NCBI GenBank assembly: GCA_025362495.1
Contig: JANYGI010000026.1
Location: 1-64,000, forward strand
Direction: 5' to 3'
DNA length: 64,000 nt
DNA from: Byssovorax sp.
GTDB lineage: Bacteria > Myxococcota_A > Polyangia > Polyangiales > Polyangiaceae
Positions within the stretch are counted from its first letter, which is position 1; each line of letters starts with the position of its first letter. Below are positions 31,369-52,921 of this stretch, piece by piece. The translations under genes and the position numbers were made by a program. Under the pieces are notes generated by a model, which worked only from the letters and a program-made list of their open reading frames with translations, was not told where the DNA came from and made no database searches.

Positions 31369-31373
31369 CATCG

Positions 31374-33517: not shown

Positions 33518-35491
33518 ATGCAGCCTCAGGCCTCCCAATCGCTCGGTCCCCAGCATCTCATCACCCTGCGGCGCTTCTTCTTGCGCCTCGGCATCGAGGC
33601 GAGCCTCGAGGTGCTCCGGGAGTCGTTTGCTCCCATCTTCACGCTCAGCGCGGTTGCGCAGCACCTCCGGGAGCATGGGATCGCGGCTCGCGTTCATCGC
33701 ATCGCGACGGAAGATCTCGACGGCTTGACGCTCCCGACGCTGATCACGTTGAAGGAGAACGGGTGCGCGCTCCTCGTCGCGGTCGACCGATTCTCCGTCA
33801 CCGTGGAGGACGGGGTCGGCGCGACGAAGAGGCTATCACGCAGCGAAGCCGACCGGATCCTCGAGGGCCACGCGCTCGACGTGTTTCCGGCGCTCCCGCG
33901 GCTCGGAGGCCTGGTTCAGCGCATTCTCGATCTCTCCTCCGCGTCCGGGCCGCTCCAGGCTGCCATCGTGAAGCTCATCGTGTTGAGCCTCCTCGTCAAC
34001 TCATTCGGCCTGGTCACGCCGATCATCTCGCGCATCGCGCTCGACGACGCGCTCCCTGGAGGCGACCGTGGGCTGTTGAAGGTGATCGCGCTCGGCACGA
34101 TCGCACTGGCGATCCACGGCGCGTGGACCAGCTGGCTGCGGGCAAAGACGGTGCGTTACCTCGAGGCGCGCCTCCGTCACCGCACGACGCAAGACCTCTT
34201 CGAGTACACGCTGCGGTTGCCCTTCTCGGTCTTGCAAGATCGAGACATCGGTCAGAGCTACCAGGCCATCAGCTCTGGCGAGATGCTGAGCCAGCTGCTC
34301 GTCTCGCAGATCATCGTGCCAGTTCTCGACGGCGCCATGGCCCTCGGCTATCTGGTGATCCTCTTCGCGAGCGAGGGGGTCATCGGCGCGGTCACGGTCG
34401 CGGCCGCAGCGATCCTCGGTGTGCTCGGATATGTCGCCGGCAAGCTCGTCGCGGCCCGCAACGCCAGGCTCCTCGAGGCGCAGCGCCGCCAGCAAAACGA
34501 GCTTCGTCAGCTGCTCGCCGGCGCGCCCACGATCAAGGTCGCGTCGGCAGAGCGCGCCTTCGTGGCGAAGTGGCTGTCGGCGCTGATCGATGAGCAGCTC
34601 GCCGCGCTCGATCGACAATCGGTCGAGCTCGGATTCCAGCGCTTCGTCGACTTCATCGTTCAGGTGGTGAACTGCGGAGTGCTCGTGTGGAGCGCGCAGA
34701 GGTGCCTGGCCGGCGAGATGTCGCTCGGGCAGGTGATGGCCGGTCTCCAGGCGAGCAGCAGCTTTCTCGCTCTGTCCGTGCGGCTCGCGACCGTGCCGAT
34801 CCGGCTCGGGTCCGCGCGGCATCACCTCGATCGAGTGAACGAGCTGCTCGCGACGACCGGCGAGCCGCCGATCCCGACGGGGGCCTCCGTCAAGGTGGGG
34901 AATTCCGCGGACGCGATCACGTTCGACGACGTGTGGTTCCGGCACTCCTCGGACTCCCCATGGATCTTCGAGCGCCTGAATCTCAGCGTGAAATTCGGCG
35001 AGACACTGGAGCTCTCGTGGCCTTCCGGCGCGGGGAAGACGACGCTGATGCGTCTCGTCGCGGGGCTTTACGAGCCTGATCGCGGCACGATCACCGTCGC
35101 GGGCCACGCGCCTCGGCTCGCGCGGCCGCTCGTCGCGTACCTGCCTCAGACGACACATCTATTCAACGAGTCGGTCCTTGAAAACCTGCGCATCCTCTCG
35201 GGCGGCGCCGACTTCAAACGTCTGATGGCTGCCGCCGAGGCGACCGGCCTGAAGAGCCTCGTCGAGGAATGGCCCATGCGCTTCGACACGCGCGTCACGG
35301 CGGGGGGCACGAACGTGTCGAGCGGGCAACGGCAGCTGATCGTGCTCACGGCCTGCGTGGCGTCACCGCGCCCGATCTTGCTGCTCGACGAGTCGATGGC
35401 GCACCTGGATCGGCTTGCGCGGGCGCGCCTGCGAGGAGCGGATCTGTTCGCGGGGCGCACGATCGTCAGCATCGGTCATGAGCCAGGCTGA
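33518..35491 (+). CDS. Second ABC exporter subunit, C39-like domain without catalytic Cys and altered Walker A
   Basis: The gene begins five bases after the first exporter. The N-terminal 130 residues resemble a C39 domain in fold pattern (LRRFFLRLGIEASLEVL, then ALLVAVDRFSVTVEDG) but no ECGxxC motif is present, so it is likely a leader-binding relic. Six membrane spans follow (about 150-420). The ATPase has ELSWPSGAGKTT in place of the usual GxSGAGKT (the leading Gly is Trp), signature VSSGQRQL, Walker B ILLLDESMAHLD and IGHEPG. Its length is 657 aa. The pair suggests a heterodimeric exporter with one weakened site, as in NHLM-type loci. Confidence 0.88.
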   Translation: MQPQASQSLGPQHLITLRRFFLRLGIEASLEVLRESFAPIFTLSAVAQHLREHGIAARVHRIATEDLDGLTLPTLITLKENGCALLVAVDRFSVTVEDGVGATKRLSRSEADRILEGHALDVFPALPRLGGLVQRILDLSSASGPLQAAIVKLIVLSLLVNSFGLVTPIISRIALDDALPGGDRGLLKVIALGTIALAIHGAWTSWLRAKTVRYLEARLRHRTTQDLFEYTLRLPFSVLQDRDIGQSYQAISSGEMLSQLLVSQIIVPVLDGAMALGYLVILFASEGVIGAVTVAAAAILGVLGYVAGKLVAARNARLLEAQRRQQNELRQLLAGAPTIKVASAERAFVAKWLSALIDEQLAALDRQSVELGFQRFVDFIVQVVNCGVLVWSAQRCLAGEMSLGQVMAGLQASSSFLALSVRLATVPIRLGSARHHLDRVNELLATTGEPPIPTGASVKVGNSADAITFDDVWFRHSSDSPWIFERLNLSVKFGETLELSWPSGAGKTTLMRLVAGLYEPDRGTITVAGHAPRLARPLVAYLPQTTHLFNESVLENLRILSGGADFKRLMAAAEATGLKSLVEEWPMRFDTRVTAGGTNVSSGQRQLIVLTACVASPRPILLLDESMAHLDRLARARLRGADLFAGRTIVSIGHEPG

Positions 35492-38060: not shown

Positions 38061-38795
38061 TCAGGGGAGGCGCTCGCGGAACGCTCGGGTTGTCCACAGG
38101 TGCTCACCGCCGCGGTCGAGCAGGGCGCGGGCGATACACAGCACCTCGTGGTTGGTGAACTGGGACTCGTGGAATCTCACGGCGGTGTACCACGCGCTGA
38201 GTCGATCGTCGTCGAAAGGCGTCTCGAGCAGGTTCAGCTCCAGTCCGGTCGCGCGCATGATCTCGCCGACGGACCGGCAAATCTCTTCCGGAGCTCTGGG
38301 GAGCGCATACGGTATGTCCTCGAAGAACGCGATTGGCGAATCTGCGGCGAGCTGAAGCCCCGCTTCGCGCGTGATGACGTGATCGACGTGCCCACCAAGG
38401 CCCATTGGAAGGACCCACAGATCGTGTCGATGATCCGCGACGACGGGCTGAAGCGCCTCGACGAGCGCGCGCGCCTCGGAGCGGATCGTCTCCTCGTCGT
38501 GGTCGAAGACTCCGGTGCCGGGGCGGCGGAGCGGGGCGTCCAGGCAGCCGAGGTTCGTGGCTCGAGTGTGCCCTCCCAACGAGGAGAGGAACGCTTCGTC
38601 CTCGCGGCAGCGCAGCGAAGAGACCGCCTCCACGCTCCCGTGTGTCTCCGAGCAAGGTGCCCACGCGCTTCGTGTGAAGCAGTTGACCACGTGGATGGGA
38701 ATCGGGGCGCCGGCCCAGGTCCACAGCGTGGAGCCGAGAGAGAGAGCCGTGTCGTCGTGGTGGGGCGCGAGCACGAGCACGCGAGGAAGCGGCAT
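38061..38795 (-). CDS. PIG-L-type deacetylase (LmbE-like)
   Basis: ATG 38793-38795 gives MPLPRVLVLAPHHDDTALSLG. The zinc site is APHHDD near residue 10 with the third ligand in GGHVDHVI near 150, both hallmarks of the LmbE/PIG-L fold. Length 244 aa. These enzymes remove acetyl groups from GlcNAc-type sugars or bacillithiol/mycothiol precursors. It lies 10 bases after the carbamoyltransferase gene on the same strand and so is co-transcribed with it, which points to a shared sugar-tailoring job. The substrate in this island is unknown. Confidence 0.88.
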   Translation of the reverse strand: MPLPRVLVLAPHHDDTALSLGSTLWTWAGAPIPIHVVNCFTRSAWAPCSETHGSVEAVSSLRCREDEAFLSSLGGHTRATNLGCLDAPLRRPGTGVFDHDEETIRSEARALVEALQPVVADHRHDLWVLPMGLGGHVDHVITREAGLQLAADSPIAFFEDIPYALPRAPEEICRSVGEIMRATGLELNLLETPFDDDRLSAWYTAVRFHESQFTNHEVLCIARALLDRGGEHLWTTRAFRERLP

Positions 38796-38805
38796 GTCGC
38801 CGGCC

Positions 38806-40461
38806 TCAGGCTCCGGGCACGAACGGCGGGGCGACACGTTTTCGAATGAAGTACGGGGGGGCGACGAGTGCGTGCAGAGGGCTCGTACGAAAGAGCGCGA
38901 GCGCCTCCTCGAACGTCTCGACGAGCGGCCCGCCGGGGCCGTTGAGCGAGGTGTTGATGAGTACCGGCATTCCTGTTCGCCGATGAAACGCCGACAGGAT
39001 ATCGTGGGCGAAAGGGTTGGTCGCGCGATCGACCGTTTGAATCCGCGCGCTCCCATCAACGTGAGTTATCGCCGGGAGCTTCGCGCGGTAGTCCGCGCGT
39101 ACAGCGGCAGCGAACTGCATGAAAGGCAAAGCTCGGTCGGTCTCGAAAATTTCACTCGCGTGCTCGAGCAGGACGAGGGGGGCGAGCGGACGAAACCACT
39201 CCCGGCCCTTGACATGCTGATTGATCCAGCTCGTCGCGCCCGGTGACCGGGCGTCGGCGAGCATGCTGCGGTGACCTAGCGCGCGTGGCCCGGACTCACT
39301 GCGCCCATGGAAGGTCCCGATCACCTGGCCGTTCTGGAGCGCCTCGGCGGTCCGCTCCGCCAGGTTCTCGGGCTGCTCGACGATGAGGTCCTCTTGCTCG
39401 CGAAGAGAGCTCGGGGACGCTGGGCCGGGGTCGGGGCCGAGAAAGTCGTCTTTCCAAATGAAATCGGGTCGCTCTCCGCGGAGCGCGATGGCCCCGAACA
39501 GCGCGCATCCAAGAGCGGTTCCACCGTCGTGAGGCGACGGAGGGACGAAGATCTCGCGAAACGGCGTCTCGCGCAGGAGGCGCCCATTCGCGACGCAGTT
39601 GAGCGCGGTACCTCCGGCGAAGCAGAGACGCGATCTTCCCGTGGTCGCATGGAGCCAGCGCGCAACCTGCACGAGCGCGGTCTCGAAGACGGCTTGACCG
39701 GCCGCCGCGAGGTCGGCCGCGCGCTGGAACTGGGCGCGATCGTCGCCGGAGTACTGGTAACTTGAGCGGCCGAGCAGCACCTCTGCCCACTCGGGCGTGA
39801 GAAACACGCTGTGATCTTCCACGACGAGGTCGGGGAGATCGAGCGCCATCGGATCGCCGTAAGGTGCCATCCCCATGACCTTGCCTTCTTGACCTTCGCC
39901 GTCAGGAAAAATCGCTTGCGTCAGCAGGAGGTAGAAGAAGCCGAGTCCGACGGGCAGCCCACGATCGCCGTCCCACAGCTGCTTGGCTACGCATCTCAAC
40001 GTCATCCCTTCGGCGTCGTACATGCTGTTGACCTCGAGCCAGCCTGGATCGATGGCATCGGGAGCTGACCACTGCTCGCGGAAGTCGCGCACCGGGCTAC
40101 CCTGACAATCGACGACGAGCACGGCTGCGTCGGTGAACCCGGACGGAAAGAACGCCGAGTACGCGTGCGCCAGGTGATGCGAGATGGTGGCGTGCTCGCA
40201 GGGGCCGAGGACCGCTCGGATCTCGTCGGCGTAGGCTGCTTGGTTCTCGACCTCGGCATCGGACGAGTAGCACTCGACCACGAGATCGACGGGGCGAACG
40301 CCCAGCTTGAGGCGCTCCGCATAGCGCGGCAGATCTCCGAGACGTCCCCAGTCGTGCTTGCGCCGCGTGATACGCTCTTTCTGTAGAAGCGTCGGATTGC
40401 CATCGTCGAGAAGGCACACGCTGGCGTCCTGGGTTCGATTGATGCCGATTATTCGACTCAT
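38806..40461 (-). CDS. O-carbamoyltransferase (TobZ/NodU family)
   Basis: ATG 40459-40461 starts MSRIIGINRTQDASVCLL, the family N-terminus. The Kae1-like domain has the metal-binding HHLAHAYSAFF (about 105-115) and later LCFAGGTALNCVANG. The C-terminal domain contains SESGPRALGHRSMLAD and TSLNGPGGPLVE. Length 551 aa matches TobZ (570). It uses carbamoyl phosphate to make a carbamoyl-AMP and transfers the carbamoyl to a hydroxyl, usually of a sugar. The nearby heptose genes suggest the sugar as acceptor (inference). It is the first gene of a two-gene minus-strand operon. Confidence 0.92.
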   Translation of the reverse strand: MSRIIGINRTQDASVCLLDDGNPTLLQKERITRRKHDWGRLGDLPRYAERLKLGVRPVDLVVECYSSDAEVENQAAYADEIRAVLGPCEHATISHHLAHAYSAFFPSGFTDAAVLVVDCQGSPVRDFREQWSAPDAIDPGWLEVNSMYDAEGMTLRCVAKQLWDGDRGLPVGLGFFYLLLTQAIFPDGEGQEGKVMGMAPYGDPMALDLPDLVVEDHSVFLTPEWAEVLLGRSSYQYSGDDRAQFQRAADLAAAGQAVFETALVQVARWLHATTGRSRLCFAGGTALNCVANGRLLRETPFREIFVPPSPHDGGTALGCALFGAIALRGERPDFIWKDDFLGPDPGPASPSSLREQEDLIVEQPENLAERTAEALQNGQVIGTFHGRSESGPRALGHRSMLADARSPGATSWINQHVKGREWFRPLAPLVLLEHASEIFETDRALPFMQFAAAVRADYRAKLPAITHVDGSARIQTVDRATNPFAHDILSAFHRRTGMPVLINTSLNGPGGPLVETFEEALALFRTSPLHALVAPPYFIRKRVAPPFVPGA

Positions 40462-40541
40462 GAGAATGAAAACCCTCGCAGGTGCATGGATTCGTGACGA
40501 GGCCAGTTCTCCCATCGGCGGGCTCGTTGGCGGCTCGGTCA

Positions 40542-40570
40542 CGAATAAAGGCGATCCATTACGCTGTCAA
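40542..40570 (-). promoter_or_regulatory. Sigma-70-like promoter for the carbamoyltransferase operon
   Basis: On the minus strand a perfect TTGACA (plus-strand TGTCAA, 40565-40570) is followed after 17 bases by TATTCG (plus-strand CGAATA, 40542-40547). Transcription would start near 40535, giving about 75 bases of leader to ATG 40461. The -10 box matches only half of TATAAT, so confidence is moderate. Confidence 0.45.
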
Positions 40571-41044: not shown

Positions 41045-41236
41045 ATGAACGACGAACAGAAGAAGACGCGCACTCCTGGCCGCAAGCTCGCGAAGGAGGA
41101 TCTCGAGCGAGTTGTCGGAGGCTTACCGCCCGTCAAGGGGTGTGGCACCCAGGGGTGTCCGGGCGGCGCCGGCAGCGCTTCACCGACGGCTGCAGACGCG
41201 CAGCCTTCGGTCAAGGGCTTCGGCTGGAACGAGTGA
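41045..41236 (+). CDS. Double-glycine RiPP precursor peptide, 63 aa
   Basis: ATG 41045 has GGGAGG at 41030-41035. Residues 1-26 are a leader rich in Lys, Glu and Arg that ends KEDLERVVGG, the double-glycine type cut by C39 proteases, predicted after Gly 26 (base 41122). The 37-residue core (27-63) reads LPPVKGCGTQGCPGGAGSAS then PTAADAQPSVKGFGWNE. It has two Cys (33, 38), Thr 35 and 48, Ser 44, 46 and 55, and a repeated P-x-VKG-x-G unit. The first core codon is TTA, rare in this DNA. No lanthionine or YcaO genes are near, so Cys/Ser/Thr are glycosylation candidates. Confidence 0.85.
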   Translation: MNDEQKKTRTPGRKLAKEDLERVVGGLPPVKGCGTQGCPGGAGSASPTAADAQPSVKGFGWNE

Positions 41237-41325: not shown

Positions 41326-41940
41326 ATGAGCGCGAAATCCAGCGACGTTTTATTCACTGCGGCGCGAGAGCTCTCCGGAGACGGAGTGACTTTCGGGGTC
41401 GTCGAGGAGCACTTCCTGGTTGTGTCGAACACTCTCCAGGGAGTGCTCCTCGAATCGGTTTGTTCTGTCGTCGCCTCTCTGCGGCGCGCCCGCGATGACG
41501 GGGCATCGGTCTTCGTGTTTGGCAATGGGGGCAGCGCGGCCACTGCGCTGCATCTGGCGAACGATCTCACCATGGCATGCGCGGTCGGCCGGCCTGGTCT
41601 CCGGGTGACCTGCTTGAGCGCGAACCTGAGCCTTATCACCGCCATCGCGAACGATTTCGGATATGACCAGGTCTTCTCGAGGCAGCTCGCTTCGCTGGTT
41701 CGCCGGGGCGACGTGGTCATTGGTATCTCCGGCTCCGGGAATTCGCCCAATTGTGTGAATGCCTTTGATTGCGCGCGCCGGGCTGGCGCGACATGCGTCG
41801 GGATATTGGGCTTCGACGGCGGCAGAATGCTCGCGCAGAGCGACGTGTCCGTGCATGTGCGGTGCGATGATTACCTCGTCGTCGAGGACGTGCACATGGT
41901 GGTCGCACACAGCCTCGCCCGCGCCCTCAGGCGCGGCTGA
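41326..41940 (+). CDS. gmhA: SIS-domain sedoheptulose-7-phosphate isomerase
   Basis: ATG 41326 has AGGA four bases upstream; an earlier TTG frame runs back toward the precursor and looks less good. The 204-aa protein has the SIS fold: VFGNGGSAATALHLANDLT, then VVIGISGSGNSPNCVNAF, and a C-terminal HMVVAHSLARAL. GmhA converts sedoheptulose 7-phosphate to D-glycero-D-manno-heptose 7-phosphate. The assignment is supported by the HddA and GmhB/HddC-type genes that follow, although the SIS family also contains other sugar isomerases. It is 89 bases downstream of the precursor, co-directional. Confidence 0.82.
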   Translation: MSAKSSDVLFTAARELSGDGVTFGVVEEHFLVVSNTLQGVLLESVCSVVASLRRARDDGASVFVFGNGGSAATALHLANDLTMACAVGRPGLRVTCLSANLSLITAIANDFGYDQVFSRQLASLVRRGDVVIGISGSGNSPNCVNAFDCARRAGATCVGILGFDGGRMLAQSDVSVHVRCDDYLVVEDVHMVVAHSLARALRRG

Positions 41941-41988: not shown

Positions 41989-43614
41989 ATGTGTGACTCG
42001 AAGTACTGGTGGCCGCTCGACCTGATCGGCGAGGAGCGGACTGCATTCGGTGCCTTCCAGGCCCGTATGCGCGAGGAGCCGGTGGTTCTCGATCAGGTGG
42101 CGGCGAGCGCCACGATTGGCATGCTGACGATGGGAATGCGCCATCACATCCAGGGCCTCGCCGTCGACGATAGGCTCGGCAGCTTTTGCCATCTGCTGAA
42201 TGGGTGGGGCGACTTGATCGTGAACGGCGCGAAGCTGACCGCGTCGCTCGCCAACTTCACGCAGCGTGGCCCTGGAGGCGGCTGGTGCCTCCTCCAGATG
42301 AACCCCGAGGGGGAAGTTCACCCCTGGCAGACCTTTGCCTATGCCACCATGGCTGGCATCGCGCCGGCCCGGATCCTCTACGACGGAGGTCCCACGTTGC
42401 GCGACCTCGCTCTGGGATCGCGTGCGCTCCCCACGCGCGACGCCGACGAGTTCGGGCACCTGCTTTACGCGCTCGCGACAATCGAGCCGGACGCCGGCGT
42501 CCACTTCTCGCTGGAAGGGGAGCGTCACACCACCAGGCAACTCGTTGCGATGGCCGTTCGCGCCCATCACGAGGGCACTTTTCGCGTCTGTCGGAAGTTT
42601 CACCTCACCGAGGGATTGTGCGCCGTGGCCGCGCGCATAGAAGGGCTGAGCGAGTACCGCGAGGCCGCACAGGGCTTCCTCGAAGGCCAGATGGACGTCT
42701 TGTTCGCGGTGGGCGCGCTCCTGGAGCATGCTGTCGCGCTCCACGACGCGCGGCGGTCACCCGACGCAGGTGGGCTTGTCGAGCGCCTGTGGGACAAGCT
42801 CGCGATCAACCCCCTCATCGAGAATCATGCCTACTTGGCGGGACACCTGATGGAGCTGGCCTGCCTTGCACACGGCCTCGGGTATACCGTGTCTCTCGCG
42901 CATCGACGCGCAATGGCGTATATCGCGAATGCACTCAATCGACTCTTGCCAGTCTTCGCGGGCGGGATAGCATGGCCCCTTTGTTTCCTCCATCTGGGGC
43001 ACTATCGGCGCGGGCTCAGCTTGCTGTCCTTGCTCGAGGATCGCGGCTTTGTAGGCGAGCTTTCTCCCGGTGATCTGTCGGCGTTCTCGGTCAACTTCGA
43101 CGCCGTGGCTCCGGCTCGGTTGCCGGAGAGCCCCCCGGAGGATGCTCAGCGCGTGTTTCGCCTCTTGGCGCAACCGGCGGTGCCGCGGCCGCGATTTGCT
43201 GCGACCATCGAGTGCTTTCGGGCCATCGCGCCGGCCGGTTTGCATCCACGAGGCGTGCTCGCGCACTTCCGGCGTGCGGCGCCGCAAGGCTGGCCACGCG
43301 CCCTCCATTACGAGTTACTCGACGATGGCGACGAGGTCGGCGTGGAGATCCACCTGGAGGACGCGTCGCTTCGCCCTCTCGCCGAGCCGTTGCGCGGCCT
43401 GCTGGTGGAGGGGCGCGCGCGCTTCCCCGATGCGCGGGTGGACTGGGACGACGCCTGGATGGCGGGGCGCTTTCGTGTGCGTTTCCCTTCCGAGACGGCG
43501 CCGGAGCGCGTGGCTCAAGCGATGGTCGACCTGATCCACGGCACCTCGCGCTCCCTCACGGAGGCCGTCGAGCAGCTTCGTGGCCACTCGTCGGCTGTTG
43601 CGCTGAGCCCATGA
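41989..43614 (+). CDS. Unrecognised 541-aa protein of the peptide island, possible alpha/alpha-toroid
   Basis: I do not recognise a family. The first 170 residues include NFTQRGPGGGWCLLQMNPEGEV and HPWQTFAYATMAGI. Residues 170-360 have repeated pairs of helices with conserved aromatic and His residues (AHHEGTFRVCRKFHLTEGLC, IENHAYLAGHLMELACLAHG, HLGHYRRGLSLLSLLED), the look of an alpha/alpha barrel or toroid. Residues 370-541 may be a second domain with beta strands. There is no signal peptide. Its stop overlaps the next ATG (ATGA), so it is produced stoichiometrically with the heptose enzymes. A role in modifying the peptide or joining sugar to it is only a hypothesis. Confidence 0.75.
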   Translation: MCDSKYWWPLDLIGEERTAFGAFQARMREEPVVLDQVAASATIGMLTMGMRHHIQGLAVDDRLGSFCHLLNGWGDLIVNGAKLTASLANFTQRGPGGGWCLLQMNPEGEVHPWQTFAYATMAGIAPARILYDGGPTLRDLALGSRALPTRDADEFGHLLYALATIEPDAGVHFSLEGERHTTRQLVAMAVRAHHEGTFRVCRKFHLTEGLCAVAARIEGLSEYREAAQGFLEGQMDVLFAVGALLEHAVALHDARRSPDAGGLVERLWDKLAINPLIENHAYLAGHLMELACLAHGLGYTVSLAHRRAMAYIANALNRLLPVFAGGIAWPLCFLHLGHYRRGLSLLSLLEDRGFVGELSPGDLSAFSVNFDAVAPARLPESPPEDAQRVFRLLAQPAVPRPRFAATIECFRAIAPAGLHPRGVLAHFRRAAPQGWPRALHYELLDDGDEVGVEIHLEDASLRPLAEPLRGLLVEGRARFPDARVDWDDAWMAGRFRVRFPSETAPERVAQAMVDLIHGTSRSLTEAVEQLRGHSSAVALSP

Positions 43615-44873
43615 GGGCTCGCGGAGCGATCGTCGCTGGCGGACGCGCGGCGAGGATGGGCGCACTGGCTGGTTCGCTTCCCAAATCGTTGTTCGTGGTC
43701 GGCGGTCGCCCGGTGCTCGACCATCAGCTCGAGATACTCGACGCCGCCGGTATCGACGAGATCACGGTCTTCGTGGGGTACCTCGGCGACGCCATCGAGG
43801 CGCACCTCGCGCGTCGGGAGCCGACGTCCGCTCGCACGACGGTCGTATGCGAGCCGACGCCGCGCGGCTCAGGCGGATGCCTCTCGGCCGCGCCCGACGA
43901 TCGGACCCTCGTCGTCCTGCTCGGCGACGTCATGATGCACATGGACCTCACGGCGCTGCTCGATTCCCACCGGCGGAGCGGGGCGGAAGCGACCATCGCC
44001 GTCCACCCCAACGATCACCCCTGGGACAGCGATCTGGTCGACCACGACGCCGCCGGGCGAGTCCGTCGGATCCACCGCAAGCCGCACGCGGCGGGCCTCC
44101 TGGCCCGCAACGCGGTGGTTGCCGGGGTGTACGTTTTGGAGCCGTCCATCCTTCGACGCATCCCCCGACATGCGGCTGCCGACCTGACCCACGACATCAT
44201 CGCCACGGCGGTCGACGGGGGCGCGCGAGTGCATGCTTACGCCACGGCGGAGTACTTGAAGGACATGGGGACCCCGGATCGCTACCGACGCGTCACGGAG
44301 GATTACTCGAGCGGGCGGGTGCTCGCCTGCCACCGGTCCCAGCGGCGCCGCGCCGCCTTCATCGATCGTGATGGCACGCTGAACCAGCACGTTGGGCACC
44401 TTCGCCGCGCCGATCACATCGAGCTGCTCCCCATGGCCGCTCGCGCGATTCGACGGCTCAACGAGGCCGGCGTCCTCGCCGTCTGTGTCACGAATCAACC
44501 GGTTCTGGCCCGCGGCGAGTGCAGTGAAGCGGAGCTCGAGCGGATCCACGCGCAGCTCGAGATGGCGCTCGGCAACGAGGGGGCTTTCCTCGACGCGATC
44601 TATGTTTGCCCTCATCACCCCGAGTCTGGTCACCTCGGGGAGGTGTCGGCGCTCAAGATCGAGTGCGCTTGTCGCAAGCCGGGGACCGGGATGGTCGACA
44701 CTGCGCTCCTCGACCTGAACATCGATCGCGATCGCTCCGCCGTATTTGGCGACACCTGGCGGGACCTGGCGATGGCCGAAAACGCGCGGATGCCTGGCTT
44801 CCTGGTGAGCGACACGGCCCCGCTCGAAGATGCCGTGAAGGCCTGGCTGGCGCAAAGCGAGACCTCGTGCTGA
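43611..44873 (+). CDS. Fused sugar-1-phosphate nucleotidyltransferase and heptose-bisphosphate phosphatase (HddC-GmhB)
   Basis: ATG 43611 overlaps the previous stop. Residues 1-235 are a nucleotidyltransferase: GAIVAGGRAARMG, LPKSLFVVGGRPVLDHQLE, VVLLGDVMMHMD and EYLKDMGTPDRYRRV. Residues 240-420 are a HAD phosphatase: AFIDRDGTLN (catalytic DxD), CVTNQPVLARGE, then CPHHPE...CACRKPGTGM, the zinc-binding Cys/His set of GmhB, and FGDTWRDLAMAENA. GmhB removes the 7-phosphate from heptose 1,7-bisphosphate and HddC then makes a nucleotide heptose, so the fusion joins two consecutive steps. The nucleotide (GDP by analogy with HddC) cannot be read from sequence. Confidence 0.88.
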   Translation: MRARGAIVAGGRAARMGALAGSLPKSLFVVGGRPVLDHQLEILDAAGIDEITVFVGYLGDAIEAHLARREPTSARTTVVCEPTPRGSGGCLSAAPDDRTLVVLLGDVMMHMDLTALLDSHRRSGAEATIAVHPNDHPWDSDLVDHDAAGRVRRIHRKPHAAGLLARNAVVAGVYVLEPSILRRIPRHAAADLTHDIIATAVDGGARVHAYATAEYLKDMGTPDRYRRVTEDYSSGRVLACHRSQRRRAAFIDRDGTLNQHVGHLRRADHIELLPMAARAIRRLNEAGVLAVCVTNQPVLARGECSEAELERIHAQLEMALGNEGAFLDAIYVCPHHPESGHLGEVSALKIECACRKPGTGMVDTALLDLNIDRDRSAVFGDTWRDLAMAENARMPGFLVSDTAPLEDAVKAWLAQSETSC

Positions 44874-45838
44874 TCACCCGGACGCCGCTTCGTGTCAGCT
44901 TGCTCGGCGGCGGGACCGATCTCCCCGCCGTGTACAGTCGCGGCGGTGGCGCCACGGTTGGAGCCGCGCTCGCCGCCTGGATCGACGTCGCCGTTCGGCC
45001 GCGCCTCGAACACGAGCCCCACCGCTTCGTCGTGGCGTGTGGAGGCTACGAGACCGCTGATTGCGTCGGCGCGATAGCGCATCCGATCGTGCGTGAGGCG
45101 CTTCGGTTCACACAGACGGACGAGCCGCTGGAGATCCATTCCATGGCTTCGGTGCCCGCGGGAACCGGTCTGGGGTCGTCTTCATCGTTCACCGTTGGCC
45201 TGTTGCACGCGCTGTACGCTCGACGCGACCAGGCCGTGACGCCGATGCAGCTCGCTCGCGACGCCTTCTGCGTCGAGGCGGAGCGGGTGGGGTGTCCAAT
45301 TGGCCGGCAAGATCACGCGTTTGCAGCGCTCGGTGGGTTACGCGAGCTGAGGTTCGACGCCGACGGCGGCGTGCGCTCGCGCGTGCTGTCGGGCGCCGGT
45401 TTGGCGCGCCTGCAGTCGTCGTTCCTTCTGTTCCGGCTCGCGGGAACGCGGTCAGCGGCCGAGGTCCTCCGTCGCCTCGATCTGGCGGCGGACCATCGCC
45501 AGGAAATCCTCGGACGCATGCGCGATTCCGTCAGCGATCTCGTCCGCGAGATCGAAGACGGGTGCAGTCTCGCTCGGATCGGAGAGATGCTTCATCGCGG
45601 CTGGATCTTGAAGCGTGAGCTCGGAGCTTCCACGCCCGAGGTCGACGCGGCCTACGCCCTGGCGCGCGAACATGGAGCGCTTGGCGGGAAGCTCCTCGGG
45701 GCGGGGCAGACGGGGACTCTGCTGCTCGTGGCGCCGGTGGAGCGCGCCCCGGCGCTCCGCCGCGCGCTCGCCGGACAGGGGGAGCTTCGCTTCGCGATCG
45801 ATCCCGTCGGGAGCCGGGTGCTCTTGCGCGCCCCCTGA
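44867..45838 (+). CDS. hddA: GHMP kinase, D-glycero-D-manno-heptose 7-phosphate kinase-like
   Basis: GTG 44867 overlaps the previous stop by seven bases and gives MLITRTPLRVSLLGGGTDLPAVY, the HddA-type N-terminus. The GHMP loop VPAGTGLGSSSSFTVGLLHAL lies near residue 95. GRQDHAFAALGG and GKLLGAGQTGTLLL follow. Length 323 aa. HddA phosphorylates the anomeric position of heptose 7-phosphate, feeding the phosphatase/nucleotidyltransferase fusion. With GmhA upstream this is a full route to an activated heptose. Convergent with the glycosyltransferase gene, stops one base apart. Confidence 0.9.
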   Translation: MLITRTPLRVSLLGGGTDLPAVYSRGGGATVGAALAAWIDVAVRPRLEHEPHRFVVACGGYETADCVGAIAHPIVREALRFTQTDEPLEIHSMASVPAGTGLGSSSSFTVGLLHALYARRDQAVTPMQLARDAFCVEAERVGCPIGRQDHAFAALGGLRELRFDADGGVRSRVLSGAGLARLQSSFLLFRLAGTRSAAEVLRRLDLAADHRQEILGRMRDSVSDLVREIEDGCSLARIGEMLHRGWILKRELGASTPEVDAAYALAREHGALGGKLLGAGQTGTLLLVAPVERAPALRRALAGQGELRFAIDPVGSRVLLRAP

Positions 45839-45839
45839 T

Positions 45840-46700
45840 TCACGGCGTGCTCCCGGTGCTCCCGGGCGCTCCACACCTGTCGCGGAAGGCGGCTCGGTAG
45901 CACGCGGATTCATCGCCCCAGAGCTGGTCGACCGTCGCTTCGATGTTGAGCTCGAGCTGGATATCTTTGCGAAGTGTACGGAGTAGATGAGCCGGTGAGA
46001 TGGAGTAGATCAGGCCAACGTGATACGGATTGTCCGCCCCGCTCAGCCAGTCGATACTCTCCACGGCCTCGCTCGCTGCGGGGGGCGAGACGACGGCGCT
46101 TCGCCCTTCGTGTCCGTTGTTGCCGACCAGGCTGGCCAGTGGAGCGCCGTGTTCGACGAGCCCGCGTGCGTGCCAGATGCGTCGGTGATGCGCCATTGCC
46201 CAGAGATCGATGCGCGCGTCCTCGGGCAAGGCCTGCTCTTCGGGAACGATGGCCGCGTCTTGCCAGCTCAGGAACTCTAGCAAGCGTGCGCGCGGGATGG
46301 CGCAGGCGACGGTGACGAAGCCATCGTCGGACGTCCACCACGACTCGTTCGCCTCGGTGGCGTCGAGCTCCGTCTCGTGGTTCGCGTAGAAGCACACCAG
46401 ATCGTCGCTGCGCACCGCCAGGGCGGCGTGAACGGCCTCGACGAAGAGCGGACATGGAAGCGCGTCGTCGTTGAGGAGCACGACATGCGAGGCATCCTGG
46501 CGGAGCCCCCATTCCCAGCATGCCCTGGCCACGCTCCAGACGCCGCGACGCGTCGTATCGCGCTCGATGTGCAACGCGTCTCCGGGCCGGAGCTGCGCCG
46601 TCAGCGTCGCGCTCAGGGTCGCGGTCATGCTCACCCGCGCCGGCTCGAACGCGGCATGCATGACTGCGAATGCGAAGTGAGATGCCGGAGGCGTGCTCAT
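45840..46700 (-). CDS. Glycosyltransferase-like protein (GT-A fold, small)
   Basis: ATG 46698-46700 overlaps the previous stop as ATGA. The 286-aa protein shows an acidic motif VVLLNDDALPCPLF near residue 75 (the DxD-like donor/metal site of GT-A enzymes), then VACAIPRARLLEFLSW and LPEDARIDLWAMAHH. The C-terminal 90 residues are variable and end with a Cys. It may transfer a sugar, but the motif set is weaker than in the two other island glycosyltransferases, so confidence in function is moderate. It is the last gene of a three-gene minus-strand operon. Confidence 0.65.
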   Translation of the reverse strand: MSTPPASHFAFAVMHAAFEPARVSMTATLSATLTAQLRPGDALHIERDTTRRGVWSVARACWEWGLRQDASHVVLLNDDALPCPLFVEAVHAALAVRSDDLVCFYANHETELDATEANESWWTSDDGFVTVACAIPRARLLEFLSWQDAAIVPEEQALPEDARIDLWAMAHHRRIWHARGLVEHGAPLASLVGNNGHEGRSAVVSPPAASEAVESIDWLSGADNPYHVGLIYSISPAHLLRTLRKDIQLELNIEATVDQLWGDESACYRAAFRDRCGAPGSTGSTP

Positions 46701-48433
46701 CGGGTCTTGCGCAGCCACACGCTCTGCCCTCCGCCGCCGAGGCTTGGCGACGTTTGCTCCGCGAGGTCGTCGCCGTGAGCGCGCGCCGTAGGGTCGGTGT
46801 GATAGACGATCTCGAAGGTGCGGTTGTACTGGAGGAATGCACGGGCAAGGAGCGGGGCTGTCCGGGCGCGGGCGTCGAGGAGGTCGTTCGAGGACGGGAG
46901 CGGATCGAGGGCCGCGTGCACGTGGATGTACACACCGGGCTGCAGGCTCGGCAGAATTTCGTGGAGGATCCGGATCATGTCACGCTCGTCGGTCGACGTC
47001 GTGAACAGGATGTCGCCCGGACGAAGTGCAGCAAAGAGGCCGAGATCCACGTCTTGCAGCTTCGTCGAAAGCAGCTCGACCCGCTCGCGATCTCCGGGCT
47101 TGAACCACGAGAACAGGTGAACCGGAGCGGGATCGATCAGCGTCATGTGCATGGTGCCGCCCAGGAAGCGATCGTTCACGTCGACCGCCGCCGCGAAGGC
47201 GAACCCGGCGCCGATCGCGACATATCGGCCAGGGCGCAGGTGGCGCAGCATGAATTGCAGCGCCAGCGCGTCTGCGCGCGGGAAGGAGCCATTGTCGAAG
47301 TAGTAACGCAGCCCTGGTTGCGGGCGCGCCGAGAACGGTTGATCGGCGTGAAATTCGCGAAAATGCTCGATCAGAGCCAGTTGCGCCGGGTGGTTCAAGT
47401 CCACGCCGGGGATGTTCTCGGTGCCGGGGGTGAAGGTGATCGCGATCCGCGGGGCGGGGGCGTCGCGATCCGGTGTCGAGGAAGGATCGTGAGACGCAGG
47501 CGCGCCCGCGCGCGTAGCCGGATTCACGCGCAACGGCTCGACGCGGGGGACGACGGCGATCCCCCCGGCGCTCGAGCCCTCCACCGCGCCGTGCGGTTCG
47601 ACCGAAGCGCGCGTTTCTGCGCCGAGCTGCATGCGCGCTTGCCACGTTGCGACGTCGTCCTCGTAGGTGCCCAGAAAATGGCCGAGCCCGTAGTTGTGAA
47701 TGCAGGTTGCAAAGTTCAAGCTCTCCGTCGCGGCGCGCGTGCTCCCGGCGAGCGCGCGCACGTCGTCGCCGTGCGTGAGGTGCAGCACGGCGCCCGCGCG
47801 CCGATGTTCGAGCCCACGCGCGAGCTTCAAGCGGGCCACCAGATCGAGATCTTCCCAGCCCCAGCCTTCCAGATCGGAGTTCATACCGCCCACGGCGACG
47901 AAGTCGTCCCGGTGCATCACGATGAGGCCGGGGCCGCTGCGACTCCCGTCTTCGAGGTGGGTACGGTTCGTCTCGAGGTCGAGCGCGAGCCGCGGGCCGA
48001 GGAGCTTCACCGAGTGCGCGATCGTGTGTAGGCCTTGCGACTCGCGAGGCGGAGCGGCGAGCGCGGCGGACTCGTGGACACGGTCGACGGTGACGAACGT
48101 TCCGGGCGCGAGGCTCGCGCGCATCTCGTCGAAGAATCCTCGGCGGAGCACGACATCGGCGTCCAGGAACGCGAGCAGGCCGGTGCGGGCGAGGCTCGCG
48201 CCGAGGTTGAGCGCGAGGCACTTGTTGAAGGCCGTGTCGACGCGTATCCGACGGAGCGATGGCAGCTCGATTCCCGTCGTGAGGCTCGCGAGGTGATCCT
48301 CGGCGCCGCCGCAGTCGACGACTATCACCTCCGCGCGCGCTGAAGCCAGCTCGCCTCGATTGCGTCGGAGCGTCTCCCGGAGCTCGGCGCGGTCGCACCA
48401 CGCGATCACCACGGTGAGGGACCGCTCAGGCAT
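46697..48433 (-). CDS. Fusion of a GT2-like glycosyltransferase with a methyltransferase-like domain
   Basis: ATG 48431-48433 lies in an overlap with the next gene. The N-terminal part (about 1-230) is a GT-A enzyme: TVVIAWCDRAELRETLRR, VIVVDCGG, GLLAFLDADVVLRRGFFDEM (DxD), and GMNSDLEGWGWEDLDLVARL, the ED motif of polymer-type enzymes. Residues about 330-570 follow a class I methyltransferase pattern (YVAIGAGFAFAAAVDVNDRF, MHMTLIDPAPVHLF, RPGDILFTTSTDERD, YIHVHAALD), yet several polar residues I expect in active members of that family are replaced. It may be a degenerate or non-SAM domain. It probably adds sugar to the peptide or its glycan. Confidence 0.78.
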   Translation of the reverse strand: MPERSLTVVIAWCDRAELRETLRRNRGELASARAEVIVVDCGGAEDHLASLTTGIELPSLRRIRVDTAFNKCLALNLGASLARTGLLAFLDADVVLRRGFFDEMRASLAPGTFVTVDRVHESAALAAPPRESQGLHTIAHSVKLLGPRLALDLETNRTHLEDGSRSGPGLIVMHRDDFVAVGGMNSDLEGWGWEDLDLVARLKLARGLEHRRAGAVLHLTHGDDVRALAGSTRAATESLNFATCIHNYGLGHFLGTYEDDVATWQARMQLGAETRASVEPHGAVEGSSAGGIAVVPRVEPLRVNPATRAGAPASHDPSSTPDRDAPAPRIAITFTPGTENIPGVDLNHPAQLALIEHFREFHADQPFSARPQPGLRYYFDNGSFPRADALALQFMLRHLRPGRYVAIGAGFAFAAAVDVNDRFLGGTMHMTLIDPAPVHLFSWFKPGDRERVELLSTKLQDVDLGLFAALRPGDILFTTSTDERDMIRILHEILPSLQPGVYIHVHAALDPLPSSNDLLDARARTAPLLARAFLQYNRTFEIVYHTDPTARAHGDDLAEQTSPSLGGGGQSVWLRKTR

Positions 48434-49883
48434 TCGAGGGCTCGGTGCGGCTCGCGATGAGCAGGCCTGACTCAAGCATGGCCTGGAGGGCCTCGTCGCT
48501 GCCGAGTTGCCCGGCGCGAAGGCTCTCGAGCGTCCCGCCCGCGACGAGGTGGTCGACGATCGCTCGCGCGGTCCCGTCGAGCTCGAAGCGCGCCGGCCAG
48601 GCGGGATCCAGCAGTCGGAACCGCGTGTCCGCCTCTTGCTCCAGCGGTGCGGCGAGTCGGATCGACGCAGCCTCGGCAATCCGCGGGGCGGGGCCGCTCA
48701 CGTAATGGGCCACGACATCACGGTAGTGCTCCCAGGGCTCGTTGGGCACGCGCGGGAGCAAGCCCGCCTCGGGGTGGGGGATCCGCGGCGTCGCGGTGAC
48801 GACGGGGCGCGAGCGCCCGCTCCACCGCATCTCGACCCCGTCGCGGACGGCGCTCCTCAGCGCTTCTCCACACGTTTCAACGGAATATCGAGCGCGCATC
48901 CGCTCGACGCCCGCCGCGCCGCAGCGCGCGGCCAGCGAGGCGTCTTCGAGCAGTCGCTGCGTCGCAGCGATGGCACGCGCGACATCCAGGCGGATCCCGC
49001 TGTCCGTGATCCAGGTGTCTACGAGAAAGCCCGTCTCGCCGTCGCCGATCGTGTCTTTCAATCCACCGTACGCCGCGCCCACCACCGGTACTCCGCAGGC
49101 CATCGCCTCGACGGGGGCATAGCCGAAGTTTTCGTCGATCGAGGTCGTTGGGTGCACGAGGACATCCATCGCGTTGTAGGCGGTGGCCAGATCGTCGTTC
49201 GACAGGTTCGCCGGCAGATAGATGACATCGTCAGCGATCCTCAGCGACCCGAGGAGCTTGCTGATGATGTTCGGATAGTCGGCGGTCACGTAGGGGAGCA
49301 CTGGATAGTCGACCCAGTAATTGCCAATCACGACGGCGCACGCCGTCCTGGGGGCAATGCGGCGCTTCACCTCCGCGAACATTCGCAAGAAGCCGTGAAG
49401 GTTCTTCTGCGGGAGCAAGCGCCCGACGAACCCCACGACGTGGTCGGTGGGGTGAAGCGGCAGAAGATCGCGCGCCTTGGCCTTGTCCTGCCGGTGAAAG
49501 ACCGAGGTGTCCACCGGCAGTGGAAGATGCCGAAGGAGGGGACCTTCGCCGTTCACCATGGCGGCGAGAATGCGCATGTCCGAGAGACAGTTGACCAGCA
49601 AGACATCCGAGGTTTCGAGCTTGCCGATGCTGTTTTGCAGCATGTCGTGATCGAGGATTGGTCCGCCGTGCATGGCGAGGACGAGCGGCCAGTCCGGGTG
49701 CGCGTCGACTCGCCAGGAGGCGCCGCCGGAAAAATGAAGAGACGCGTCAGGAGCCTTCGTCGCCGGATCCGAGGCGTGGCGGAGCTCGAACGACTCCTCG
49801 AGGGCGCGGAGATAGAATCTTCGCGTTCGCTCGACGCTGGGCCACGGGTGTGGGCCGGCGCCGTGAAGCTCGATAATCGGCAT
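48426..49883 (-). CDS. GT4-type glycosyltransferase with C-terminal winged-helix-like tail
   Basis: ATG 49881-49883 has GGAG eight bases upstream; earlier frames are excluded as non-protein-like. The GT-B body (about 1-345) shows VVGFVGRLLPQKNLHGFLRM, DVLVHPTTSIDENFGYAPVEAMACGVPVV and GDGETGFLVD, the GT4 donor-site signature (E-x7-E). The last 75 residues (ARFELDGTARAIVDHLVAGG ... ALQAMLESGLLI) resemble a winged-helix/PqqD-like module. It begins the minus-strand operon. In a RiPP locus the tail could bind the leader peptide, which would bring the enzyme to the precursor; this is inference. Confidence 0.8.
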   Translation of the reverse strand: MPIIELHGAGPHPWPSVERTRRFYLRALEESFELRHASDPATKAPDASLHFSGGASWRVDAHPDWPLVLAMHGGPILDHDMLQNSIGKLETSDVLLVNCLSDMRILAAMVNGEGPLLRHLPLPVDTSVFHRQDKAKARDLLPLHPTDHVVGFVGRLLPQKNLHGFLRMFAEVKRRIAPRTACAVVIGNYWVDYPVLPYVTADYPNIISKLLGSLRIADDVIYLPANLSNDDLATAYNAMDVLVHPTTSIDENFGYAPVEAMACGVPVVGAAYGGLKDTIGDGETGFLVDTWITDSGIRLDVARAIAATQRLLEDASLAARCGAAGVERMRARYSVETCGEALRSAVRDGVEMRWSGRSRPVVTATPRIPHPEAGLLPRVPNEPWEHYRDVVAHYVSGPAPRIAEAASIRLAAPLEQEADTRFRLLDPAWPARFELDGTARAIVDHLVAGGTLESLRAGQLGSDEALQAMLESGLLIASRTEPSNA

Positions 49884-50254
49884 TCGCGTCTCCAGTTGAG
49901 GGATCGAGTGTCGCCCCGATCGATCGGCGTGCGCACCCAGCAGCGTTGACCCTTCGCACGGGTCATGATGAATGTAAAGACACTGACCCCGGATCCTCGA
50001 TGGCTCCACGGAGTCCGGGCAGAGACGCCGGGGTGGCCTCTGCCGAGCAAGATTTCGAGCTTCTCTGGCCGCGCGTGGAGTATCTTGCCGCTCCGTGTTC
50101 AGTCGCAGACCGTCGAGACCAGAGCCGTATCACTCCGACCGGCCGCGCCGCTCGCGATTCGCTCGATCCGAGGGGCGCCCCGTGCCCGGGATCGCCCGGA
50201 GCGCCCTTCTGCCCGAGGGGCTCGAGGTCGAGGCGATGGCGCGATGATATCGAG
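49884..50254. promoter_or_regulatory. Divergent intergenic region, glycosyltransferase operon / DNA methyltransferase
   Basis: The 371 bases separate the leftward glycosyltransferase operon from the rightward methyltransferase gene and must hold both promoters. A frame open through the interval into the methyltransferase lacks protein-like content and was not used. I could find no clean -35/-10 pair or sigma-54 element. Several GC-rich inverted stretches lie around 50160-50230 (GGGGCGCCCC type), which could fold in RNA. Confidence 0.45.
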
Positions 50255-52921
50255 ATGATGTCGACCAGCACACGTCCGTCCATCGATCCCCCGGGCCATG
50301 GCGCCACGCTCTCGAAGGCGCTCCGGGGACAGGCGCTCTCCTCGCTGCGCGAACTGCTCCTCGGCCTCCGCGGCGCGAATCTCCCTGCGTCGCGAGGGCC
50401 GCTCGCGGCGCACGTAGAGGCGGCTACTGCGGGCCTCGTCTCGGTCGTCCTCCGCCTCTGCTTCGTGCTCTTCGCGGAGGACCGCCGGCTCCTCCCGATG
50501 GAGTCCGAGGTCTACGCGCGATCGTGGTCGCTCACCGGCCTTCACGCCCAGCTCCGCGCGGACGCGGCGCGCCTCGGCGCCGGCCTCGAAGACCGCGTCG
50601 GCGCGTGGGAGCGGATCCTTTCCCTCTTTCGCGCGCTCCACGATGGCTCCGGGACCGCGGGGGATTTCACCTTGCCAGCGCGGTATGGAGCGCTCTTCGA
50701 TCCCGACGCCTATCCGATGGAGCTCCCGCGCCTCTCCGACGGCGCCGTGCTCCGCGCGCTCGATCCGCTCCTGGTGCTCGACGGCGAGCCCCTGCGCTAC
50801 GGCGACCTCGACGTCGAGCACCTCGGGACCGTCTACGAAGGACTGATGGGCTACGAGGTGAAGGTAGCGCAGGGGCCGTGTCTGACCCTCAGGCCCGCGG
50901 ACGTGGTCGTCGATCTCGAGCAGCTCTTGGCGCTGCCCGGCGAGGGCCGGATCGAGCGCCTCGCCGAGGAGGCAGGGCTCGAGATCAAAGGCAAGGTCGC
51001 CCGGGCCGTCGAGGCCGCGACGACGCCGGAGGCCCTCGTGGCGGCCCTCGCTTCAAAGGCCTCTCCGCGCCGCCGCGAGCCGATCGGCGCGGGCGAGGTC
51101 TTTCTCCAGCCCGGCGAGGATCGCCGTCGCTCCGGCGCGCACTACACCTCGCGCGCCGTCACTCGCGTCCTCGTCGAGCGCGCTCTCGCTCCGCTCCTCG
51201 CCGAGGCCACCTCGCCCGAGGCTACCCTGGCCTTGAAGATCTGCGATCCCGCGATGGGCGGGGGCGCGCTCCTGATCGAGGCCTGTCGGCAGCTCGGCGA
51301 CCACCTCGCCGGCGCCTGGCAGCGCGCGGGGGCAGGGGACGATCCCGCTTCGATTCCCGGGGATCTGCGCCTCACCGAGGCCCGCCTTCGCGTGGCCACG
51401 AGCTGCCTTCACGGCGTCGACAGGAACCCTCTCGCGGTCCACCTCGCGCGGCTCTCGCTCTGGCTCGTCGCCGCGTCACCGGATGAGCCGTTCACCTTCG
51501 TCGATCACGCCCTCCGGCACGGGGACTCCCTCGTGGGGCTCCCGGCCGAGCCCGTCGCCGGCGCCCTGATCGCGCCGCTCGCCGGCGCCGACGAACAGGC
51601 ACTCTCCGCGGCGCGCGCGCGCGGCGATCTGGCGCTCTCGGCGTTCTTCAGCACCCGGGACAAGCGCGCCCGGGCCCAGGCGATCACGGCGATCGCGGCG
51701 GAGGCCAGCGAGGATCCCCACGCGCCGGCGCTCGCGGCGAGGCTCGCCGACGTCCGGGCGCGCTATGCCCCCTTCCACTGGAGCGTCGAGTTCCCCGCGG
51801 TCTTCGCCGGGGCCGCGCCAGGCTTCGACGCCATCGTCGGAAACCCACCGTGGGTATCGTACTCCGGCCGCGCCGCGCAGCCTCTCGCGGACGAGCTCCG
51901 CGATTTCTACGCGGCCACGAGCCCTGCATTCCACGGGTTTCGCAACCTTCAAGGCCTCTTCGTCCATCGCTTCGCCGCCATGCTCCGCCCGGGCGGACGC
52001 CTCGGCCTGGTGCTCCCCACCTCGACCTCGGATCTCGGTGGCTACGAGCCCACGCGCCGCGCTCACGACGCGCTCTCGGTCTGCGACGACGAGCTGCCCG
52101 ACTTCGGCGAGAAGGCCTTCGACGGCGTCTTTCAGCCCTCGATGGGGCTGCTCTCCACCCGTCGGCGCGAGCGCGTGTCGATCGAGTCGGCCTCTCCCTG
52201 GCCGCTCGAACGCGGGGATATCGACGCCGACACCCGCGCTGTCGTCGAGCGGTTGAGCGCGCTCCCGCCGCTGCCGGCGCGGCTGTTCGGCGAGCGAGGA
52301 TTCCAGTCCACCGGCGCCGATCTCCGCCACTTTCACGCCCTCCGCGCCCCGGAAGCGAGCTTCACCGTCCCGGTCCGCGTCGGGGGCGACATCGCTCCTT
52401 TCCTGCGACGACCGGCCGAGATCCACTGCGATCCAGAGGCCTTTGCGGGGCGGCTCCGGCCGGCGGCCGAATGGCAGACCGTGAAGCTCCTGTTCCGCCA
52501 GACCGCGCGCTACCCGATGGCGGTCCTCTCCGACGGCGCGGCCTTCCGCAACTCGATCCTCGCGGGCTTCGCCGACGAAGCGTGGAGCGCTCACCTGCTC
52601 CTCGCGTACCTCAACTCCACGCCCGTGCGCTGGCTCCATTACACGCGTCACCGGGACGCGCGCCAGGGGATGCCTCAGCTCAAGATAGCGCACCTCCGCG
52701 CCGTCCCGGCTCCGCCGCTCTCCGGCGACGCCGGAGAGGCCCTGACCCGGATCGGCCGGGACCTCGGCGAGCGCAACCGCGGGATCTCCGCCGCGGAGCA
52801 GGACGACCTCGACGCGATCGTGGCCGGGCTCTTCGGGCTCGACGCGGCCACGCAGGGCCGGATCCGCGCGTTTCGCGCCGCGATGGCGCCGTTCGTGCGG
52901 GCGTCCCCGCCCCGCGAATGA
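50255..52921 (+). CDS. Adenine-specific DNA methyltransferase (Eco57I/PglX-like)
   Basis: The start is one of two adjacent ATGs (50255, 50258); upstream residues are not protein-like. The 888-aa protein opens directly with the segment LRLCFVLFAEDRRLLP common to these enzymes near residue 65. The motif SGAHYTSRAVTRVLVE, motif I DPAMGGGALLIEACR (about 330), motif IV VGNPPWVSYSG (about 530) and a target-recognition region C-terminal follow. These are N6-adenine methyltransferases of type IIG, BREX or DISARM systems. The N-terminal nuclease seen in type IIG enzymes seems absent and no helicase or nuclease gene is adjacent. Confidence 0.85.
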   Translation: MMSTSTRPSIDPPGHGATLSKALRGQALSSLRELLLGLRGANLPASRGPLAAHVEAATAGLVSVVLRLCFVLFAEDRRLLPMESEVYARSWSLTGLHAQLRADAARLGAGLEDRVGAWERILSLFRALHDGSGTAGDFTLPARYGALFDPDAYPMELPRLSDGAVLRALDPLLVLDGEPLRYGDLDVEHLGTVYEGLMGYEVKVAQGPCLTLRPADVVVDLEQLLALPGEGRIERLAEEAGLEIKGKVARAVEAATTPEALVAALASKASPRRREPIGAGEVFLQPGEDRRRSGAHYTSRAVTRVLVERALAPLLAEATSPEATLALKICDPAMGGGALLIEACRQLGDHLAGAWQRAGAGDDPASIPGDLRLTEARLRVATSCLHGVDRNPLAVHLARLSLWLVAASPDEPFTFVDHALRHGDSLVGLPAEPVAGALIAPLAGADEQALSAARARGDLALSAFFSTRDKRARAQAITAIAAEASEDPHAPALAARLADVRARYAPFHWSVEFPAVFAGAAPGFDAIVGNPPWVSYSGRAAQPLADELRDFYAATSPAFHGFRNLQGLFVHRFAAMLRPGGRLGLVLPTSTSDLGGYEPTRRAHDALSVCDDELPDFGEKAFDGVFQPSMGLLSTRRRERVSIESASPWPLERGDIDADTRAVVERLSALPPLPARLFGERGFQSTGADLRHFHALRAPEASFTVPVRVGGDIAPFLRRPAEIHCDPEAFAGRLRPAAEWQTVKLLFRQTARYPMAVLSDGAAFRNSILAGFADEAWSAHLLLAYLNSTPVRWLHYTRHRDARQGMPQLKIAHLRAVPAPPLSGDAGEALTRIGRDLGERNRGISAAEQDDLDAIVAGLFGLDAATQGRIRAFRAAMAPFVRASPPRE

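Follow-up and report, generated by a model that had tools for sequence, protein, structure and literature searches.

A nucleotide-sugar cassette related to the GDP-heptose enzymes is linked to a double-glycine leader peptide in two myxobacterial families

Glycocins are recognised by a core peptide with two nested disulfides (four or more Cys), and to our knowledge the known members use ordinary nucleoside diphosphate (NDP) sugars. The GDP-octose of lincomycin is built by the same enzyme classes (PMC4351081) as are encoded at the locus described here, which lies in a 64,000-nt stretch (the window) of Byssovorax sp. contig JANYGI010000026.1 (GCA_025362495.1). The locus combines a gene for a short peptide with a double-glycine (GG) leader, genes for a putative exporter, two glycosyltransferase (GT) genes and a sugar cassette in which a nucleotidyltransferase (NT) is fused to a HAD phosphatase. 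We consider it rather probable that the locus directs the biosynthesis of a glycosylated, ribosomally made and exported peptide with its own NDP-sugar supply. The linkage between the peptide gene and the sugar cassette is real, is conserved in two families and is undescribed as far as searched: no paper on a ribosomally synthesised and post-translationally modified peptide (RiPP) with heptose, or with such a dedicated sugar-1-phosphate route, was found in the open-access literature. The fusion itself is ordinary, and the sugar branch to which it belongs is atypical and coherent.

The conserved linkage was observed in a genome of another family within the same class (G367). Its contig C48 carries C39 exporter and HlyD genes, a gene for a homologue of the GG peptide and an isomerase gene (product 50% identical to that of the window) that reaches to within about 20 bases of the contig end. 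Contig C128 carries the gene for a 541-aa protein without known family (U541), whose start lies about 25 bases from that contig's end, followed by the fusion, the kinase, GT4 and GT2; both contigs end between the isomerase gene and U541. The peptide, full-length U541 and GT4 each occurred in exactly two of the 317 genomes of the class, namely that of the window and G367, and no credible third member of the peptide family was found among them (next best E = 0.004). The GT genes are tied to the sugar genes by their arrangement in G367, where they lie downstream of the kinase on its strand and the reading frames overlap. The original prediction had seen a set of isomerase, kinase, phosphatase and nucleotidyltransferase genes outside a lipopolysaccharide (LPS) locus and tied to a GG peptide, and this association is borne out by its retention in the second family.

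The window peptide (41045–41236, plus strand, 63 aa; MNDEQKKTRTPGRKLAKEDLERVVGG followed by LPPVKGCGTQGCPGGAGSASPTAADAQPSVKGFGWNE) is encoded upstream of the isomerase, and its homologue at 6925–7113 of the G367 locus L140. Both share the leader TRTPGxKL....L...VGG and the core motif C-x(1-2)-QGC; the window core has two Cys residues (C33 and C38) and the core of the homologue five, spaced differently. A short precursor with a GG cleavage site together with a C39-ABC exporter, as found here, is the combination that marks RiPPs with C39 export. The C39-peptidase ABC exporter (31356–33512, plus; homologue at L140 2667–4922) is encoded between a HlyD-type membrane fusion protein (30073–31368, plus; a HlyD-type gene is also present in L140) and a second ABC transporter (33518–35491, plus), which resembles ABC proteins of type I secretion and of NHLM systems. 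Its best match was NHLM_micro_ABC1 (TIGR03796); the exporter is of the NHLM type in the window and G367 alike, with a match below the curated cut-off.

The fusion comprises 420 aa (43611–44873, from the ATG to the end of the stop codon). Domain scans assigned its N-terminal domain to NTP_transferase (residues 6–233; NT domain, residues 1–231, at 43611–44303, plus) and its C-terminal domain to HAD phosphatases, nearest to GmhB (about residues 246–406; GmhB-type domain, residues 246–405, at 44346–44825, plus). It is flanked by genes for a SIS isomerase of a GmhA-like sister subfamily (41326–41940, plus), for U541 (41989–43614, plus), whose stop overlaps the fusion start by 4 bases, and for a HddA-like GHMP sugar kinase (44867–45838, plus), whose GTG start overlaps the fusion end by 7 bases. 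The domains and coordinates of the fusion, both overlaps and the reading frame of the GmhA-like gene agree with the original prediction. It had also taken the isomerase, fusion and kinase genes to be consecutive; U541 in fact separates the first two. Similarly, the four enzyme classes of the "complete heptose route" that it proposed are present, but the names GmhA and HddC and the heptose assignment are not supported as they were given.

The zinc ligands of classic GmhA have been described as completely conserved (PMC5705639). The window isomerase has T61, H64, D68, E175 and H183 (Burkholderia pseudomallei numbering) where classic GmhA has D61, H64, E68, Q175 and H183; D and E replace E68 and Q175, and T replaces the coupling residue D61. 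Three of the five GmhA catalytic-site positions differ (D61T, E68D and Q175E). The original prediction had named the absence of heptose-discriminating residues as evidence against it, and these differences count in part that way. The GmhA model, run against 311 genomes of the phylum without reference to the fusion, separated its hits by score into a high and a low group. The 30 loci of the high group all had D-H-E-Q, and the 19 readable loci of the low group had x-H-D-E (17) or T-H-E-E (2). In a tree of 73 sequences from which the signature columns had been removed, the two isomerase types fell on either side of one branch (Shimodaira–Hasegawa-like approximate likelihood ratio test, SH-aLRT, 100). 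Glu occupied the Q175 position in all 36 rows on the window's side (window included), with Asp at E68 in nearly all, and the other 37 rows kept the classic residue set; the isomerases of the cassette relatives formed a single SIS clade sharing the window's substitutions. The window isomerase scored 129 bits against the TIGR00441 cut-off of 209, which none of the 311 genomes passed, classic ones included, and in this phylum the NCBIfam cut-offs for GmhA and HddA are so strict that membership cannot be judged by them alone. A second GmhA-type gene was not found in the window's own genome (97% complete), so no LPS heptose route was seen that shares the cassette enzymes.

The other enzymes combine retained catalytic residues with similar departures. 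All five WcbL sites at which mutation abolished activity (PMC4691232) are kept in the window kinase (R13, D22, S118–S120, Q162 and D163). In the kinase tree, WcbL, Campylobacter jejuni HddA and the kinase of locus L133, from the window's own family, split from all other cassette kinases with support of 100; the window kinase, with the motif PIGRQD, lay outside this clade and scored 75 bits against the NF049969 cut-off of 600. The phosphatase keeps the HAD motifs DxDGT (D252RDGT), TNQ, K and GDxxxD and the zinc site CxH...CxC (C333, H335, C352 and C354). Its zinc loop is 25 aa long, as in the cassette-type phosphatases generally, and not the short 21-aa loop found in all 54 classic GmhB-type sequences. 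The NT domain has EPTPRGSGGC at the guanine-contact motif of HddC (EXXPLGTGGA, Glu80; PMC6981941), with the Glu kept and conservative changes elsewhere. It scored 30 bits with the HddC equivalog NF049965 (cut-off 300) and 105 with the mannose-1-phosphate guanylyltransferase model. Because this motif is kept, GDP is a plausible nucleotide where the original prediction had left a choice between GDP and ADP. Genes of the GDP-mannose-dehydratase or epimerase families adjoin several cassettes of the same branch (L026, L031, L033 and L045), in agreement with a GDP-sugar. Since the marks of isomerase, kinase and phosphatase all differ from the classic ones, whereas L133, as a control, keeps the latter, the sequences place the four sugar enzymes in a coherent sister branch of the classic GDP-heptose enzymes. 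These differences mostly reflect one old split and do not amount to many independent observations. The cassette thus appears not to be a classic heptose pathway, and its product may be a heptose or another long-chain aldose.

A rare or unique fusion was ruled out by full-length NT-HAD relatives, which are found in archaea as well as in many phyla of bacteria. A single scan across species genomes yielded about two dozen loci, nearly all aligning over the whole fusion at 36%–47% identity, in Bacteroidota, Bdellovibrionales, Chlorobiota, Actinomycetota, Pseudomonadota, Verrucomicrobiota, Bacillota and Woesearchaeota; within the window's class, the fusion was present in eight of 317 genomes. GHMP kinase and SIS isomerase genes adjoin it in most of these loci. 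With such relatives, the fusion seen in the window is well above chance level. The original prediction had taken the fusion to suggest substrate channelling, which it might allow; in the archaeal loci L044 and L045, the NT and HAD domains are separate neighbouring genes. At locus L133 (1425–4493), the partners of the NT-HAD fusion are a GmhA and a HddA of the classic type; the kinase scored 397 bits with the HddA model (window kinase, 75 bits), and the zinc loop is short (21 aa). It looks like an independent fusion within a true heptose route. Locus L039 is mixed, with a classic isomerase, a GG-type kinase motif and a long zinc loop (26 aa). Longer proteins with NT and HAD domains (about 620–700 aa) were seen in L024, L025, L029, L031, L032, L033, L041, L042 and L200, and those of L024 and L031, which were domain-scanned, end in a P-loop kinase domain resembling phosphoribulokinase and uridine kinase; such an extra domain is apparently fused to NT-HAD in Bacteroidota, Chlorobi and others. 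The window's own genome also encodes a second GHMP kinase, of the PIGKQD type, beside a nucleotidyltransferase and without an isomerase (L135 8786–11523, G000:C193).

No family was assigned to U541 in the domain scans. Its model, of low confidence (predicted local distance difference test, pLDDT, 61), has an N-terminal alpha/alpha helical barrel and a C-terminal domain like chaperone/YbjN proteins and type III secretion chaperones. Among the best structural matches of the barrel are transcobalamin, terpene cyclases and AprG, an octose enzyme, the last with a Z score of 12 that is comparable to unrelated helical barrels. No sequence match to solved structures was found, AprG included, and Foldseek with this model returned nothing at E < 0.001. 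The C-terminal module (43180–43614; GWPxxLHYEFL...ELHLE), for which there is no Pfam family, also ends proteins at L108, L109 and L112–L116, at least one of which has a NucS_C-like nuclease domain. A RiPP-specific role assigned through this domain was rejected because the module also ends NucS-like proteins in other myxobacteria.

Sedoheptulose 7-phosphate is an ordinary metabolite and, as the simplest precursor, the most likely substrate of the isomerase. Its commonness in metabolism, together with the presence of all four enzyme classes, the retained WcbL residues and the guanine Glu motif, favours a pathway to a heptose nucleotide. In the Woesearchaeota locus L045 (10376–11032), a transaldolase gene directly follows the variant isomerase and may identify the ketose substrate of the sister branch; it would be expected if the cassette must make sedoheptulose 7-phosphate, but it fits octulose 8-phosphate equally well. 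A heptose product is a distinct possibility from which we nevertheless lean away, given that the isomerase residues, the kinase clade and the zinc loop all depart from the classic pattern and that a fusion with classic partners exists in the same family (L133). These departures concern substrate-proximal motifs and are coherent among the three enzymes, as would be expected of a sister pathway to another long-chain aldose nucleotide, for example GDP-octose as in lincomycin (LmbR/N/P/K/O), which is made with the enzyme classes of the cassette (PMC4351081), or another heptose epimer. The resemblance of U541 to AprG from the apramycin pathway would fit an octose, but it is that of a common helical barrel, non-specific at the level of the tool and without sequence relation, and no transaldolase gene was recognised among the window genes scanned. 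We regard this second kind of product as rather unlikely.

The genes present, their domain architecture and motifs, the subfamilies to which they belong and the synteny shared by two families are established; the substrate, the nucleotide, the reaction order, peptide glycosylation and export are inferred. The SIS isomerase would act on a ketose phosphate (most likely sedoheptulose 7-phosphate) to give an aldose phosphate, which the GHMP kinase would phosphorylate at C1. Within the fusion, the HAD domain would take off the distal phosphate and the NT domain would form the NDP-sugar, probably with GDP. GT4 and GT2 could then transfer the sugar or sugars to the precursor with the GG leader; leader cleavage and export of the product would fall to the NHLM-type C39 exporter with HlyD. 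The conserved GT genes are what suggests enzymatic modification of the core peptide.

This glycopeptide route is favoured because the exporter, HlyD, peptide, isomerase, U541, fusion, kinase, GT4 and GT2 recur in G367, the peptide, U541 and GT4 being confined to the same two genomes; because the window's genome has no other GmhA-type gene; and because the catalytic residues of kinase and phosphatase and the guanine-contact motif are kept, the exporter is of the NHLM type in both genomes and the cassette relatives form one SIS clade. Several points weigh against it. No product is known for the locus, and the set occurs in two genomes only, in one of which it is split over two contigs with inferred adjacency. 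The GmhA metal-site residues differ, which leaves the substrate assignment putative; the GT genes of the window lie on the opposite strand; and the two Cys and several Ser/Thr residues of the core are candidate acceptors only. Alternatively, the cassette might serve a surface glycan or a small molecule, with the peptide genes adjoining by chance. Other NT-HAD cassettes with the same signature sit among ordinary glycosyltransferase genes, and no credible GG peptide was found at six other myxobacterial fusion loci. However, the joint recurrence in another family and the shared two-genome distribution make a chance neighbourhood improbable. Going further than the glycopeptide route, the locus could represent a new myxobacterial class of glycosylated RiPPs, with an unusual long-chain aldose (a non-manno heptose or an octose) from an uncharacterised sister branch of the GDP-heptose enzymes and with U541 as a new enzyme that modifies the sugar or the peptide; this joint proposal is tentative and on balance doubtful.

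The GT4 gene (48426–49883, minus) has a C-terminal extension of about 100 aa, and its G367 homologue lies on the kinase strand. A PqqD-type recognition domain at this C-terminus was considered and dropped (no Pfam or NCBIfam match; poor model, pLDDT 53). The C-terminal half of the GT2/GT7C-like protein (46697–48433, minus), missing from the G367 homologue, gave a weak match to Methyltransf_24 (E = 0.0016, below the cut-off), and a 292-aa protein without known family (45840–46718, minus) is encoded by the last gene of this minus-strand GT operon. Nearby genes for a NodU/TobZ-type carbamoyltransferase (38806–40542, minus), a PIG-L family deacetylase (38061–39059, minus; domain scan) and a sulfotransferase are possible tailoring genes; none of the three was seen on the G367 contigs C48 and C128. 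Carbamoyltransferases of the NodU/TobZ type occur near NT-HAD fusions at four loci (the window, L023, L130 and L131), and carbamoylation of the sugar is possible. An Eco57I-type restriction-modification methylase gene (49946–52921) lies beside the cluster.

If correct, the proposed route would amount to a new type of glycopeptide, made by a defined set of enzymes. The SIS metal site, the kinase motif PIGxQD and the long zinc loop divide proteins annotated as GmhA, HddA and GmhB into two branches in bacteria and archaea, and many of the existing "heptose" annotations may have to be revised.

Compared with described systems, the cassette shares with the classic GDP-heptose enzymes the four enzyme classes, the kinase active site, the HAD motifs with the CxH/CxC zinc site and the HddC guanine Glu, and differs in the T-H-D-E-H isomerase, the PIGRQD kinase clade, the four additional zinc-loop residues and the fusion of NT and HAD. 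The lincomycin pathway (LmbR, LmbN, LmbP, LmbK and LmbO) has the same order of isomerase, kinase, phosphatase and guanylyltransferase, also in secondary metabolism (PMC4351081). It has separate enzymes and a transaldolase, a gene for which was not recognised among the window genes scanned, and the likeness is drawn at the level of enzyme class. NHLM peptide export is matched by the C39-ABC exporter nearest to NHLM_micro_ABC1, HlyD and the second ABC protein, whereas the exporter falls below the curated cut-off, the precursor is a short GG peptide without the long NHLP leader and no known cyclodehydratase or lanthionine enzyme was recognised among the genes scanned. With the glycocins (sublancin, glycocin F, enterocin F4-9 and pallidocin), the locus has in common a GG-type leader, a C39 exporter and a glycosyltransferase beside a small Cys-containing peptide; it is set apart from them by a dedicated sugar-1-phosphate pathway, two unrelated GTs, an NHLM-type exporter, a Gram-negative host and a core with two Cys in place of the four or more of the glycocin hallmark.

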